64,000 bases of DNA from Agromyces protaetiae (lineage in GTDB: Bacteria > Actinomycetota > Actinomycetes > Actinomycetales > Microbacteriaceae): assembly GCF_004135405.1 (NCBI RefSeq), contig NZ_CP035491.1, forward strand, positions 124,001 through 188,000, in the 5' to 3' direction. Below are positions 56,600-62,414 of this stretch, one piece after another (within the stretch, counting starts at the first letter, position 1; every line of letters begins with the position of its first letter). The translations under genes and the position numbers were made by a program. A model generated the notes under the pieces. The model was not told where the DNA came from and did not search any database. It was given only the letters and a program-made list of their open reading frames with translations.

Positions 56600-57541
56600 T
56601 CACTCCCCCGCGGGCAGCTCCGCGAACGCGCGAACGGGGAATGTGCCGAACCCTTCGACTCGCGGTGGCACGGCCGTGAACCGCGCGCCGCGCGCGGGCA
56701 GGCGGTCGAGGGCGGTGAGATGCTCGACGACGTGGATGCCCGCTTCGAGGAGGAGCGTGTGCGCCGGCCGCGTGCCGCCCGACTCGGTGTCGTCGATGTT
56801 GAGGGCATCGATGCCGACGAGCGCGACGCCCGCGTCGACGAGGAACCGCGTGCCCTCCTCGGTGAGGAACGGCGAGCCCGTCGCGTACGCGGGCGTGCCG
56901 AAGCGCCTGCTCCAGCCCGTGTGGAGGAGCACGGCGGCGCCCGCGAGCGCCTCGCGCGGGCGTTCGAAGAAGACGGCCGCCGGGATGCCCCGCTCCGAGG
57001 CATCCTGCAGATGGAACACCTCGGCACGCAGCCCGACGAGCGTCTCGAGCGGCAGCGTCGAGAGGTCGCCGCCGTCTTCGTAGCGGTGGAACGGACTGTC
57101 GAGGTAGGTGCCCGTGTTGCCCGGCAGATCGATGACGTCGATCTCGAACTCGGTGCCCGGAGCGTACGTCTTGCGCGATGCCTCGCGCGTCAGGTGCGGG
57201 CGGATCGTCGGCGCGGGGATGCCCGGGTAGGTCACGAGCCCGGCGCGGATCGTGTGGCTGAGATCGACGAGCGGGCCGCGCCCCGAGGCATCCGTCGGCT
57301 TCGAGACATCCTGATGGCGATCAACACCCCGCGACCCCTTGTGCGCCTCTTCGACGACCTCGAACCCCGCGAACTCGACGCCGCCGACGAGCGCGAGCCC
57401 GAGGTGACGCACGAGGAGTTCGGCGACCTCCCCCTCGGAGACGTCGGCGCGCGGCACGTCCAGACGGAAGCCCTGCGCGCTGAGCCCTCCGCCGTTGACG
57501 AACGACACCTCGGCGTCGAACACGGCGCGATACTCGGTCAT
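56600..57541 (-). CDS. fusion of a small DUF-like domain and a cyclase-family (kynurenine formamidase-like) hydrolase
   Basis: A 313-residue protein. Residues 1-70 (EYRAVFDAEVSFVNGGGLSAQGFRLDVPRADVSEGEVAELLVRHLG...EEAHKGSRG) look like a compact domain that is often a separate small protein beside cyclase genes. A linker (VDRHQDVSKPTDASGRG) follows, then the cyclase domain: LVDLSHTIRAGLVTYPG with the metal-binding H-x-x-x-D motif region (HTI/TYLDSPFH), LPGNTGTYLDSPFHRYEDG and LVGIDALNIDDT. Cyclase-family enzymes hydrolyse N-formylkynurenine or similar amides. The start overlaps the APC permease stop (ATGA). Two copies of the dispersed 10-mer encode most of the linker. Confidence 0.8.
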   Translation of the reverse strand: MTEYRAVFDAEVSFVNGGGLSAQGFRLDVPRADVSEGEVAELLVRHLGLALVGGVEFAGFEVVEEAHKGSRGVDRHQDVSKPTDASGRGPLVDLSHTIRAGLVTYPGIPAPTIRPHLTREASRKTYAPGTEFEIDVIDLPGNTGTYLDSPFHRYEDGGDLSTLPLETLVGLRAEVFHLQDASERGIPAAVFFERPREALAGAAVLLHTGWSRRFGTPAYATGSPFLTEEGTRFLVDAGVALVGIDALNIDDTESGGTRPAHTLLLEAGIHVVEHLTALDRLPARGARFTAVPPRVEGFGTFPVRAFAELPAGE

Positions 57542-58902
57542 GGAGTCTCCTCGGGGACGGGGCGGCGGAGCCGGCGGACGATCGTGACGACGACGGATGC
57601 CGCGGCGAGCACGAGCGGCACGGCGAGGTTCTGCCACGCGAGCACGAGAAGCCCCGCGGTGAGCACAGTCGCGACGACGGCGAGCCACCACCCGATGCTC
57701 CAGCGCTTCAGGAGCAGCGTCGCCGCGAGCATGCCGGCCGCGTAGATCGCGACCATGTTCGACGTGTGGATGAGGATGAAGCTCGCGAGGTCGAGGCCGT
57801 TCAGCAGCATGAGCGCGAAGTAGACGACCGTGAGCGCGCCCGTCACGACGAGCGCGCGGCGCGGGATCTCGCCGTCTTCTGCGCCCTTCGCGAGAAAGCG
57901 CGGCAGATCGCCGTCGCGGCCGAGGGCGGCGCCGAGCTTGCCGAACGCCGCGAGGTAGGCGTTCAGCACACCCGTCGTGACGATCGCCGCGACGACCGCG
58001 ACGAAGACCGGGCCGACCCCGGGGGCGGTGCCCTCGACCAGGTCGAGGAGCGGCACGACGCCCGCGCCGGCGTCTTCGCCGAGGACGCCGACCGTCACGA
58101 TCTGGAGGGCGAGGTAGCCGACGCCCACGACGACGATCGCGATGGCGGTGGCGATCGGGATGACCCGACGCGGGTTCTTGAACTCGCCCGCGATGTGGGT
58201 GCCGACCTCCCACCCCGCGAAGGCCCACACGAAGAGACTCACGGCCGTGCCGACGCCCGCCCAGCCGTTCGGCAGGAACGGCTCGAAGTGTCGCGCGTCG
58301 ACGGCCGGGAACGTCACGGCGACGACGCCCACGACGACCGCGAGCAGGAGCCCCGTGAGCACGAACTGCACCCAGCCCGCGACCCGCACGCCGAACCAGT
58401 TGACGATGTACGGCAGCACGAGGATGACCGCGCCGACGAACGGCACCGCCGCCCGCTCGACGCCGAGCACGGCGACCACGTACTCGCCGCCGAGCACCGC
58501 GACGACGGGCGCTCCCACGCACACGCCGAAGTAGAACCAGTAGCCCGTCATGCGAGCGGCCGTGCCGCCGAGCGCCGTGCGCACGTAGCTCGCGACGCCG
58601 CCCGGGTCGGGGTAGCGCGCGGCGAGCGCGGCGAACGTGCCCGCGAGCGGGATCGACAGCACGAGAACGGCCGCGACGGCGAGGATCGACGCGGGGCCCG
58701 CGGCGGCAGCCGCGAGACCCGGCAGCGCGAGGATGCCGGTGCCCAGCACACTCGCGATGTAGAGCGCCGTGCCCTGGCCGAGACCGAGGGTGCCGCGGTG
58801 GGCGGGCGCTCCGTATGTCTCGGACGAGCCGGATGTCTCGGCCGCACGCGTGGGGCTCGAGGCATCCGTTCGCTCTTGGGTCACCCGTTCAGTCTGGGAC
58901 AT
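57538..58902 (-). CDS. APC family amino acid permease
   Basis: A 454-residue APC superfamily transporter. TM1 carries ALYIASVLGTGILALPGLAAAAAGPAS, with the unwound GTGI substrate-binding turn; later FVWAFAGWEVGTHIAGEFKNPRRVIPIATAIAI matches the TM6 region with the conserved 'E..NPR..IP'. About twelve helices. YjeH/ArcD-like relatives export or import neutral or aromatic amino acids. Its stop overlaps the fused cyclase start, so transport and hydrolysis of an aromatic amino-acid derivative (kynurenine type) are plausible joint roles. Confidence 0.88.
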   Translation of the reverse strand: MSQTERVTQERTDASSPTRAAETSGSSETYGAPAHRGTLGLGQGTALYIASVLGTGILALPGLAAAAAGPASILAVAAVLVLSIPLAGTFAALAARYPDPGGVASYVRTALGGTAARMTGYWFYFGVCVGAPVVAVLGGEYVVAVLGVERAAVPFVGAVILVLPYIVNWFGVRVAGWVQFVLTGLLLAVVVGVVAVTFPAVDARHFEPFLPNGWAGVGTAVSLFVWAFAGWEVGTHIAGEFKNPRRVIPIATAIAIVVVGVGYLALQIVTVGVLGEDAGAGVVPLLDLVEGTAPGVGPVFVAVVAAIVTTGVLNAYLAAFGKLGAALGRDGDLPRFLAKGAEDGEIPRRALVVTGALTVVYFALMLLNGLDLASFILIHTSNMVAIYAAGMLAATLLLKRWSIGWWLAVVATVLTAGLLVLAWQNLAVPLVLAAASVVVTIVRRLRRPVPEETP

Positions 58903-58972: not shown

Positions 58973-60136
58973 TCACAGTCGTGCGAGCGCGCCGTCGATG
59001 TCGGCCAACAGGTCGTTCACGTCCTCGATGCCGACCGAGATGCGCACGATCGACTCGGGCACCTCGGCCTCGGTGCCGCGCACCGACGCGTGCGTCATCG
59101 ACCACGGGTGGTTCACGAGCGACTCGACCCCGCCGAGCGACTCGGCGAGCTGGATGAGCTCGGTCGACTCCGCGAACCGGCGCGCGGCCTCGCCGCCGCC
59201 CGCGAGCTCGATCGAGAGCATTCCGCCGAAGCCCGACATCTGCCGCGCCGCGAGTTCGTGCCCCGGGTGCGACGCGAGCCCCGGGTAGAAGACGCGCGCG
59301 ACGCCCGCGTGCTCGGCGAGCCGCTCGGCGATCGCCTGCGCGTTCGACGAGTGCCGCTCCATGCGGATGCCGAGGGTCTTGATGCCGCGCGAGGTCAGGA
59401 ACGCATCGAACGGACCCGAGACGGCACCCGCCGCGAACTGCGTGAACTGCACCTGGTCGGCCAGCTCCTCCTGGCCGGCCGCGAACACGAGTCCGCCGCC
59501 GACCACGTCGGAGTGGCCGCCGAGGTACTTCGTCGTCGAGTGCACGACCACGTCGGCGCCGAGCGCGATCGGCTGCTGCAGCGCCGGGCTCGCGAACGTG
59601 TTGTCGACGACCGTCACGACGCCCGCCTCGTTCGCGATCTCGGCGAGCGCCGCGATGTCGCTGATTTTCATGAGCGGGTTCGACGGCGTCTCGACCCACA
59701 GCACCTTCGTCGTGCCGAGCTCGATCGCGCCGCGCACGGCGTCGAGGTCGCTCGTGTCGACCGTCGAGTGCGTCACGCCCCACGCGCCGAAGATCCGGCG
59801 CACGAGCCGGTGCGTGCCGCCGTACACGTCGTTGCCGACGACGACGTGGTCGCCCGGCGTCAGCACCGTGCGGAGCAGCGCGTCTTCGGCGGCGAGGCCC
59901 GACGCGAACGACAGGCCGCGGATGCCGCCCTCGAGCGCCGCGAGCTGGGTCTCGAGCGCCGTGCGGGTCGGGTTCGTGCCGCGCGAGTACTCGTACCCGT
60001 TGCGGAGCCCGCCGATGCCGTCTTGCACATAGGTCGAGGTCTGGTAAATGGGCGGGATGACCGCGCCCGTCGTGGGGTCGAAGGCCTGGCCCGCGTGGAT
60101 CGCGCGGGTGTCGAAACGGGCGTCGTCGTGAAGCAT
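58973..60136 (-). CDS. metB: cystathionine gamma-synthase/gamma-lyase family PLP enzyme
   Basis: A 387-residue Cys/Met-metabolism PLP protein: FDTRAIHAGQAFDPTTGAVIPPIYQTSTYVQDG, YEYSRGTNPTRTALETQLAALEGG, VVGNDVYGGTHRLV and the PLP lysine in VVHSTTKYLGGHSDVVGG. SLGGVESLVNHPWSMTHAS is the C-terminal active-site loop with the family's conserved Ser and His. It either joins O-succinylhomoserine and cysteine (MetB) or cleaves cystathionine to cysteine. Directly after the cystathionine beta-synthase gene (25 bases), the gamma-lyase direction of reverse transsulfuration is as likely as the synthase direction. Confidence 0.88.
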   Translation of the reverse strand: MLHDDARFDTRAIHAGQAFDPTTGAVIPPIYQTSTYVQDGIGGLRNGYEYSRGTNPTRTALETQLAALEGGIRGLSFASGLAAEDALLRTVLTPGDHVVVGNDVYGGTHRLVRRIFGAWGVTHSTVDTSDLDAVRGAIELGTTKVLWVETPSNPLMKISDIAALAEIANEAGVVTVVDNTFASPALQQPIALGADVVVHSTTKYLGGHSDVVGGGLVFAAGQEELADQVQFTQFAAGAVSGPFDAFLTSRGIKTLGIRMERHSSNAQAIAERLAEHAGVARVFYPGLASHPGHELAARQMSGFGGMLSIELAGGGEAARRFAESTELIQLAESLGGVESLVNHPWSMTHASVRGTEAEVPESIVRISVGIEDVNDLLADIDGALARL

Positions 60137-60161: not shown

Positions 60162-61535
60162 TCAGTGGGAGAGGTAGGTGAGCAGGTCGGCGCGCGTCAC
60201 GACGCCGAGCGCCTTGCCGCCGTCGGTCACGAGCATCGCGGGGTGCTCGGCGAACGCCGCACGCGCGGCCGCGACCGGCTCGGTCACGCCGATGAGCGGC
60301 AGCGGCGGGCCGACGACCGTCGCGACGTCGTCGGTCAGCTTCACCCCGCCAGAGAACACGAGCTCGAGGAGGGTCTCTTCGTTCAGCGACCCGCGCACCT
60401 CGCCGATCACGACGGGCGGCTCGGCCGAGAGCACGAGCACCTGCGAGACGCCCGTCTCAGTCATGAGGTCGATCGCCTCGCGCACCGAGTCTTGCGGGTG
60501 CACGTAGACGAGCGGCGCCGTGCGGTCGGACTTCACGGCGAGGAGGTCGGCGACCGTGTGGCCCGAGGGCGCGTTGCCGAAGCCGTACGCGCGCATCCAC
60601 TTGTCGTTGAAGATCTTGTTGAGGTAGCCCCGCCCGCCGTCGGGCAGGAGCACGACGAACACGTCGTCGGCCGTGACATCCGGTCGCGCAGCCGCCTGGA
60701 GCGCCGCGACGACCGCCATGCCGCTCGAGCCGCCGACGAGGAGGCCCTCTTCGCGCGCGAGGCGCCGCGTCATCGCGAACGCGTCGGCGTCGCTGATCGC
60801 GAGCACCTCGTGCGGCACCGCGGGGTCGTACGTGTCGGGCCACATGTCCTCGCCGACGCCCTCGACGAAGTACGGGCGGCCGGTGCCGCCCGAGTACACC
60901 GACCCGTCGGGGTCGGCGCCGACGATGCGCACGCGGTCTTCGGAGACGTCGCGGAGGTAGCGGCCCGTGCCCGTGATGGTGCCGCCGGTGCCGATGCCGG
61001 CGACGAAGTGCGTCACCTTGCCCTCGGTGTCGCGCCAGATCTCGGGGCCGGTCGTCTCGTAGTGCGCGCGGGGGCCGTTGGGGTTCGCGAACTGGTTGGG
61101 CTTGAACGCGCCGGGCGTCTCGCGCACGATGCGGTCGCTCACCGAGTAGTACGACTCGGGGCTGTCGGGCGCGACCGACGTCGGTGTGACGACGACCTCG
61201 GCGCCGTAGGCCGTGAGGACGTTGCGCTTCTCCTCGCCGAACTTGTCGGGCACGACGAAGATGCAGTCGTAGCCGCGCTCCTGCGCGACGAGCGCGAGGC
61301 CGACGCCCGTGTTGCCCGACGTCGGCTCGACGATCGTGCCGCCGGGCTTCAAGAGCCCGTCGCGCTCGGCCGCGTCGATCATGCGCGACGCGATACGGTC
61401 TTTCACCGACCCGCCCGGGTTCAGATACTCGAGCTTCACGAGCACCGTTGCTTCGGTGACGCCCTGAGTGACGCGGTTGAGCTTCACGAGCGGGGTGTTG
61501 CCCACGAGATCGACGATGTTCTCGGCGTACTTCAT
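60162..61535 (-). CDS. cystathionine beta-synthase with C-terminal CBS domains
   Basis: ATG 61535 with GAGGAAAG upstream gives 457 residues. The PLP domain: YAENIVDLVGNTPLVKLNRV, LNPGGSVKDRIASRMIDAAE with the PLP lysine, EPTSGNTGVGLALVAQERGY and AGIGTGGTITGTGRYL. From about residue 335 two CBS domains (TAPLVYVHPQDSVREAIDLM and EPVAAARAAFAEHPAMLVTDGGKALGVVTRADLLTYLSH) may bind a nucleotide or SAM. It condenses serine and homocysteine. A longer in-frame start (MLPCCVAVARRR...) is rejected because a Cys-rich leader peptide in another frame occupies that region. It forms an operon with the downstream PLP gene. Confidence 0.9.
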   Translation of the reverse strand: MKYAENIVDLVGNTPLVKLNRVTQGVTEATVLVKLEYLNPGGSVKDRIASRMIDAAERDGLLKPGGTIVEPTSGNTGVGLALVAQERGYDCIFVVPDKFGEEKRNVLTAYGAEVVVTPTSVAPDSPESYYSVSDRIVRETPGAFKPNQFANPNGPRAHYETTGPEIWRDTEGKVTHFVAGIGTGGTITGTGRYLRDVSEDRVRIVGADPDGSVYSGGTGRPYFVEGVGEDMWPDTYDPAVPHEVLAISDADAFAMTRRLAREEGLLVGGSSGMAVVAALQAAARPDVTADDVFVVLLPDGGRGYLNKIFNDKWMRAYGFGNAPSGHTVADLLAVKSDRTAPLVYVHPQDSVREAIDLMTETGVSQVLVLSAEPPVVIGEVRGSLNEETLLELVFSGGVKLTDDVATVVGPPLPLIGVTEPVAAARAAFAEHPAMLVTDGGKALGVVTRADLLTYLSH

Positions 61536-61611
61536 GCTGTGTTGTTCTTTCCTCAGGTGGAGTGCGGCGAACAGCGATGGGCTGCTGCGCGCGTCGAAAA
61601 GGGGTCGCCTT

Positions 61612-61644
61612 CTAGCGACAGCAACACAGCAGGGAAGCATTCAC
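61612..61644 (-). CDS. ten-codon poly-cysteine leader peptide (MNASLLCCCR)
   Basis: On the minus strand GTG at 61644 opens a ten-codon frame, (M)NASLLCCCR, ending TAG, located 77 bases before the cystathionine beta-synthase start. Three consecutive Cys codons, then Arg and stop, are the arrangement of the cysteine-responsive attenuating uORFs known in mycobacteria. TATGGT lies seven bases before the GTG, so the RNA is probably leaderless and the uORF is translated first. Ribosome stalling at the Cys codons when cysteine is scarce would alter downstream structure and raise expression. Based on sequence pattern and known family behaviour; not tested. Confidence 0.78.
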   Translation of the reverse strand: MNASLLCCCR

Positions 61645-61650
61645 GTTGTC

Positions 61651-61656
61651 CACCAT
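61651..61656 (-). promoter_or_regulatory. probable -10 box of the transsulfuration operon
   Basis: Minus-strand TATGGT is separated by seven bases (GGACAAC) from the GTG of the Cys leader peptide, matching the leaderless TANNNT-N6/7-start arrangement seen repeatedly in this window. The region further upstream contains GGAGGCTCCTCC, a palindrome at 61661-61672. Confidence 0.5.
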
Positions 61657-61748
61657 ATCGGAGGAGCCTCCCTCGGCGTTCTCGCAGGCATCTACGATCG
61701 GATGAACCCTGCATCGCAGTCCCGACCGCCGACCCGGAAGGCCCCCGC

Positions 61749-62414
61749 ATGAGCGCCGGCACGTCCCCGTCCCCCTCGACCAAGCAGCAGCGCGCCGCCG
61801 AGCGCGAGCGAAAGCTCGCCGAGTTCCGCGCGAAAGAGGCTCGTCGCAAGCGCAACGGCGTCATCATCACGATCGCGTCGATCGCGGGCGTCGCGGTGCT
61901 CGTCACCGGGCTCGTGCTCGCGTTCGTGTTCGCGCCGAAGCCGGCGACCTACACGGCGGGCAGTGCGGGCGCCGAGATCGAGGGCGTGCAGACGTTCGAG
62001 AACGAGTCGGCGCACGTCCAGGGCGCGGTCGACTACCCGCAGACGCCGCCGGCCGGCGGCGCGCACAGCCCCGCATGGCTCAACTGCGGCGTGTACACCG
62101 AGCCGGTGCCCGCCGAGAACGCCGTCCACTCGCAAGAGCACGGTGCCGTCTGGGTGACCTACGACCCGTCGCTCTCAGCGGAGGACCTCGCCGCGCTCGA
62201 GCAGAAGCTGCCCAAGACCTACGTCGTCCTCTCCCCCTACGAGGGTCTGCCGTCACCCATCGTGCTCTCGGGCTGGAACGTGCAGCTCGAGGTCGACGAC
62301 GCGAACGACCCGCGCATCGCGCAGTTCCTCGAGGAGTACTGGCAGGGCGGCCAGGTGCCCGAGCCCGGCGCCGCGTGCACGGGCGGCGTCGACGCGCCCG
62401 GCAAGGTCGCGTAG
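61749..62414 (+). CDS. DUF3105 domain membrane-anchored protein
   Basis: A 221-residue protein with GGAAGG before ATG 61749. A basic cytosolic N-terminus (KQQRAAERERKLAEFRAKEARRKRNG) precedes one membrane helix (VIITIASIAGVAVLVTGLVLAFVF). The extracytoplasmic domain is DUF3105: YPQTPPAGGAHSPAWLNCGVYTEPVPAENAVHSQEHGAVWVTYDPSLS...YVVLSPYEGLPSPIVLSGWN...QFLEEYWQGG, with conserved Cys, His-x-x-E-H and Pro residues. Function unknown; often found next to DUF305 proteins, as here, and may handle metal or periplasmic redox. Followed three bases later by the DUF305 gene. Confidence 0.88.
   Translation: MSAGTSPSPSTKQQRAAERERKLAEFRAKEARRKRNGVIITIASIAGVAVLVTGLVLAFVFAPKPATYTAGSAGAEIEGVQTFENESAHVQGAVDYPQTPPAGGAHSPAWLNCGVYTEPVPAENAVHSQEHGAVWVTYDPSLSAEDLAALEQKLPKTYVVLSPYEGLPSPIVLSGWNVQLEVDDANDPRIAQFLEEYWQGGQVPEPGAACTGGVDAPGKVA

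Follow-up and report, generated by a model that had tools for sequence, protein, structure and literature searches.

The uORF and the genes downstream of it

Within the window, as the whole 64,000-nt stretch of DNA analysed here is termed, a very short reading frame with a run of cysteine codons lies just upstream of cbs, the gene for cystathionine beta-synthase (CBS). This arrangement raises the question of whether the upstream open reading frame (uORF) couples expression of cbs to the supply of cysteine and, if so, by what means. Read on the minus strand from 61644 to 61612, the uORF is GTG-AAT-GCT-TCC-CTG-CTG-TGT-TGC-TGT-CGC-TAG, ten codons and a stop that encode MNASLLCCCR. A first-pass annotation of this DNA had given the sequence, coordinates and peptide correctly, and had likewise placed the -10-like TATGGT seven bases 5ʹ of the GTG (Table 1). 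Its statement that the uORF lies 77 bp before the gene start is right about a position just upstream of cbs, and the measured gap from uORF stop to cbs ATG is 76 nt. In relatives, a TAnnnT element stands at near-identical spacing 5ʹ of the uORF, a regularity to be read together with the fact that start codons were picked with preference for that spacing. Judging by the -10 spacing, transcription probably begins at or adjoining the GTG, which would make the uORF leaderless. An in-frame ATG within the -10 element (MVDNVNASLLCCCR) was considered as the main start and rejected because it is absent from most relatives. The intergenic region is common to the cbs leader promoter and to a divergent gene for a DUF3105 protein (PF11303; window positions 61749-62414, plus strand).

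The product of CBS is a cysteine precursor, and the gene behind the uORF belongs to cysteine/sulfur metabolism (TIGR01137). The first-pass annotation had described a reverse transsulfuration operon; cbs does encode a true CBS by its TIGR01137 match, and the family name of the second gene is gamma-synthase, so that its lyase role is putative and the term reverse transsulfuration operon in part presumptive. The permease gene behind these two is possibly the third gene of the operon.

Table 1. Features of the cbs leader and downstream genes, in window coordinates
Feature	Positions	Strand	Basis or remark
TATGGT, -10-like element	61652..61657	-	
uORF GTG...TAG, MNASLLCCCR	61612..61644	-	presumed leaderless
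Three consecutive Cys codons, TGT TGC TGT (putative sensor)	61618..61626	-	read from sequence
Sequestering helix, left arm TGCTGTGTTG (predicted)	61622..61631	-	inside uORF: end of Leu-Leu and first Cys codons
Sequestering helix, right arm CAACACAGCA (predicted)	61535..61544	-	SD-start spacer, cbs -9 to A of ATG
Outer stem, left side (predicted)	61634..61644	-	uORF nt 1-3 and 6-11, pairs with first cbs codons; MFE
Outer stem, right side (predicted)	61525..61533	-	inside cbs; MFE
Shine-Dalgarno-like GAGGA of cbs	61550..61554	-	sequence
cbs, cystathionine beta-synthase, 457 aa	60162..61535	-	TIGR01137 571 bits, cut-off 510; PALP and CBS domains
Cystathionine gamma-synthase/lyase-type gene	58973..60136	-	NF005871 625 bits, cut-off 513; 25 nt after cbs
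Amino-acid permease gene (PF13520)	57538..58902	-	70 nt after gamma-synthase/lyase-type gene

Conservation of the leader

Conservation was assessed in cbs 5ʹ regions from 58 further Agromyces genomes and 80 named genome contigs. Under a fixed definition, namely a leaderless-type uORF with at least two Cys among its last eight codons, within 220 nt before cbs, such a uORF is present in 55 of 59 Agromyces compared with 1 of 5,900 dinucleotide-shuffled controls, and on both strands of the 64-kb window the definition picks out one place alone, the cbs uORF. Nearly all Agromyces share a layout of TAnnnT, a 6-8 nt spacer, GTG (ATG once) and 8-14 codons. The peptides end in CCR, CCRR, CCCR or CRCCRR, with a short tail added in one group, and are otherwise variable (e.g., MNASLLCCCR, MILSLCCR, MSFSPRCCRR and MLLTCCCCRRSDRP); the Cys run and the promoter spacing are kept in relatives while the rest of the uORF diverges. 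The Cys codons are conserved in relatives (55/59), the point on which the first-pass annotation had staked its reading; it had also proposed uORF length as a conserved trait to look for, and both length and Cys spacing vary. The four Agromyces outside the definition comprise two with a single Cys codon and two without a leader.

An equivalent design occurs outside Agromyces in Promicromonospora, Herbiconiux, Humibacter, Cryobacterium, Plantibacter and Georgenia. Additionally, two genomes of another family in the order (L247, L248) carry a uORF with a -10 element that encodes MVLC[IT]RLCCC and stops about 169 nt from cbs.

The association with cbs also emerged from a search in which cbs was not used as reference. 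A pattern of -10 element, spacer, RTG and poly-Cys ending matched in 32 of 299 Microbacteriaceae genomes and in 7 for a reversed control. Inspection of 30 matches yielded 22 short in-frame poly-Cys uORFs, every one of them immediately 5ʹ of cbs and in the same orientation; the other eight were out of frame within long genes or had non-Cys frames. For L190, the longest frame listed in that scan is a shifted reading of cbs. Within this genome, a looser promoter-plus-uORF pattern gave 20 matches compared with 51 for its reversed control and is uninformative alone; after in-frame filtering of the genome matches, the cbs uORF was the sole convincing one, a further short frame at L157, VRGCCRA, having no recognisable gene start close downstream. 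Inspection of its cysH and cysK loci found no Cys uORF, so a multi-operon set is unsupported here.

Cys makes up 0.3% of codons in the high-GC3 ORFs of the window, where TGT accounts for 4 of 37 Cys codons and TGC for 33, compared with TGT at 152 of 166 uORF Cys codons in relatives. This preference may stem from pairing of TGT with ACA in the ribosome-binding site (RBS), and slow decoding is a possible alternative.

Predicted pairing between the uORF and the cbs start

The predicted fold of the window leader has an energy of -47.2 kcal/mol (z = -4.48), and none of 200 shuffled sequences was equally stable. At its core, TGCTGTGTTG and CAACACAGCA form ten perfect pairs with predicted pair probabilities of 0.94-1.0. 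Across 68 leaders, mean predicted RBS-uORF pairing was 0.485 compared with 0.191 when the intergenic part was shuffled, and it was higher in 58 of the 68; in about ten (e.g., L088, L096, L097 and L022), it was not above control. The register of the pairing also shifts between leaders: the Cys tract is predicted to pair 5ʹ of the Shine-Dalgarno sequence in L088 and across the Shine-Dalgarno sequence itself in Promicromonospora. Duplexes between uORF and RBS of one leader are stronger than those with exchanged partners, with 7 of 20,000 permutations as good.

Covariation points to the same helix. In the main Agromyces group, one arm pair occurs as UA, UG, CG and GC; in a tree built from 195 nt, itself weak, the GC state occupies two separate branches. 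Double-change cells numbered 14 compared with 3.4 expected, a value that none of 500 shuffles reached and a signal that vanished when the register was slid; as the arms were aligned by hand-set anchors and the sequences share ancestry, the counts do not represent independent events. When whole unanchored leaders were given to MAFFT/RNAalifold, the gapped RBS was misaligned and the helix was not recovered. An Rfam search returned no family above its gathering score.

Modelling of ribosomes on the leader indicates how the helix might be opened. With a footprint on the first Cys codon, predicted RBS openness in the window leader rose from 0.32 to 0.80, and the same type of footprint raised the mean over leaders from 0.37 to 0.55. 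A ribosome placed at the uORF stop codon opened the RBS to a similar degree (mean 0.53). Because the two positions are nearly equal in effect, a switch must depend on dwell time, that is, on how long the uORF stays occupied.

A putative cysteine-responsive attenuator and its alternatives

The best explanation of this locus, with a probability of roughly 0.8, is that the leader is a cysteine-responsive translational attenuator of cbs. Transcription would start at or beside the GTG. In the free leader, nucleotides of the Leu-Cys codons would pair with the cbs start codon and the spacer 5ʹ of it and so close the RBS of cbs. With ample Cys-tRNA, a ribosome would cross the uORF quickly and depart, and the closed fold would form; with Cys-tRNA scarce, it would stall on the Cys codons, mask the left arm and leave the cbs start open, so that CBS, and probably also the products of the genes behind cbs, could be made. 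Release of a closed RBS is reportedly also among the proposals made for Mycobacterium smegmatis by Canestrari in 2020. The sequences show a conserved uORF and a predicted fold with covariation in it; the leaderless start, the stalling and the dependence on cysteine are inferred. The reading of the first-pass annotation, a leader that responds to cysteine in front of transsulfuration genes, is still the best one, and the finding that it had named as refuting, Cys codons not conserved in relatives, did not arise. What is added here is the likely closure of the RBS by the Cys tract in place of a terminator, the species range and the existence of earlier descriptions of cbs leaders. The design is compact, with the sensor and the sequestering strand being identical nucleotides.

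With the same sensing of cysteine, the output might instead be Rho-dependent termination in the untranslated gap once the ribosome has left the uORF; a ribosome stalled on the uORF, or opening of the cbs start, would prevent it. The gap is C-rich (mean C 0.46, G 0.28 in the cbs leaders), and Rho has been put forward for the mycobacterial cys leaders and the Bifidobacterium longum cbs leader (PMC1262725). Rho acting alone is an unlikely account, as it leaves the covarying pairing between Cys tract and cbs start unexplained; termination by Rho is compatible with RBS closure and may add to it.

Classical transcription attenuation would call for an intrinsic terminator in the gap 5ʹ of cbs, and a GUCGC/GCGAC hairpin does follow the uORF stop in many Agromyces. 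In most species, however, the tail 3ʹ of this hairpin is CCCCTTCC-like and not a T run, and no terminator-like site, with terminator hairpin and U run, was found on the minus strand, which makes such a mechanism very improbable. Since no terminator was found on this strand and the RBS is predicted to be closed, the simplest reading is attenuation at the level of translation. There is a similarly slight chance that the peptide acts in trans, by binding metal or thiols, with its position incidental. The conserved CC(C)R(R) ending would suit such a role, but the remaining residues, the length and even the Cys spacing vary, the uORF is always found immediately ahead of cbs and in its orientation, and the pairing covaries at the nucleotide level. 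That the uORF is a chance frame in a conserved promoter region can be all but dismissed despite its very short length, given its rarity in shuffled controls (1/5,900), its single occurrence in the window, its presence in many genera and a Cys run conserved amid varying residues.

Relation to known leaders

In 2005, Seliverstov et al. predicted Cys leader peptides for cys operons of mycobacteria, Propionibacterium acnes and B. longum cbs; they found no conserved hairpins and suggested Rho (PMC1262725). Ribosome-occupied Cys uORFs were subsequently reported in mycobacteria (Shell 2015; PMC4633059), and cysteine-dependent attenuation is reported to have been demonstrated in M. smegmatis in 2020 (Canestrari 2020, doi 10.1111/mmi.14498, as cited in PMC9031893, PMC9094748 and PMC13236596). 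By sequence criteria, the window leader is a well-supported further example of this known type of switch. It has clustered Cys codons near the uORF stop, a sulfur/cysteine gene downstream and a Cys run that is conserved while the remainder diverges, and it is predicted to form an mRNA structure that closes the downstream RBS and could be opened by a stalled ribosome. Like the polycysteine leaderless short ORFs of mycobacteria, it combines a putatively leaderless start and a Cys cluster near the stop 5ʹ of sulfur/cysteine genes, and how fast a ribosome passes the Cys codons would presumably set expression downstream. Unlike in that set, the putative target here is cbs, and the cysH and cysK loci of the genome are without a Cys uORF. 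The leader would extend attenuation by cysteine codons, for which tests have so far been made in mycobacteria, to a family of environmental actinobacteria.

Other leaders share part of this design. Those of Seliverstov et al. are likewise short ORFs ahead of cbs or cys operons, with Cys codons in a run close to the stop and no terminator (PMC1262725), whereas the present leader comes from a different family and has a predicted, covarying helix that closes the RBS. In the LEU element before leuA in Actinobacteria, a run of regulatory codons is also paired with the downstream Shine-Dalgarno region (PMC1262725); that element, however, uses leucine codons and a pseudoknot and is not described as leaderless. 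The uORFC-8-2 motif before cysS in Rhodobacterales (PMC8632094) has tandem Cys codons in its uORF, but its U run fits an intrinsic terminator, and both phylum and target differ.

Leaderless and reduced forms

Among relatives that lack the uORF, many show a -10-like hexamer immediately 5ʹ of the cbs start codon (L020-L083, L200-L270). Such leaderless-type cbs genes occur in Subtercola, Salinibacterium, Curtobacterium, Arthrobacter and many other actinobacterial families, and the leadered and leaderless forms seem, from their pattern, to be mutually exclusive. A tentative generalisation, at somewhat less than even odds, is that cbs in Micrococcales takes one of two exclusive forms, either leaderless without Cys sensing or leadered with Cys codons that are both sensor and anti-RBS strand, and that regulation was gained, and at times lost, by way of a leader placed between promoter and start.

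Natural variants, including single-Cys, leader-less and shifted-pairing forms, make the mechanism directly testable. Two Agromyces leaders (L105, L126) have a uORF reduced to one Cys codon (MSSSLLC and MSAPMLCRRR) and are otherwise retained. In two others (L110, L117), the whole leader is lost and a -10 element (TAGGCT) lies directly before the cbs Shine-Dalgarno sequence, within the last 40 nt before cbs; that Shine-Dalgarno sequence still bears the right arm GAACACGGC, and the two are candidate natural constitutive variants. In a further leader, near-repeats of TTGTCGCTGACGC 3ʹ of the uORF stop add about 35 nt (L129:191-356), an apparent internal duplication.
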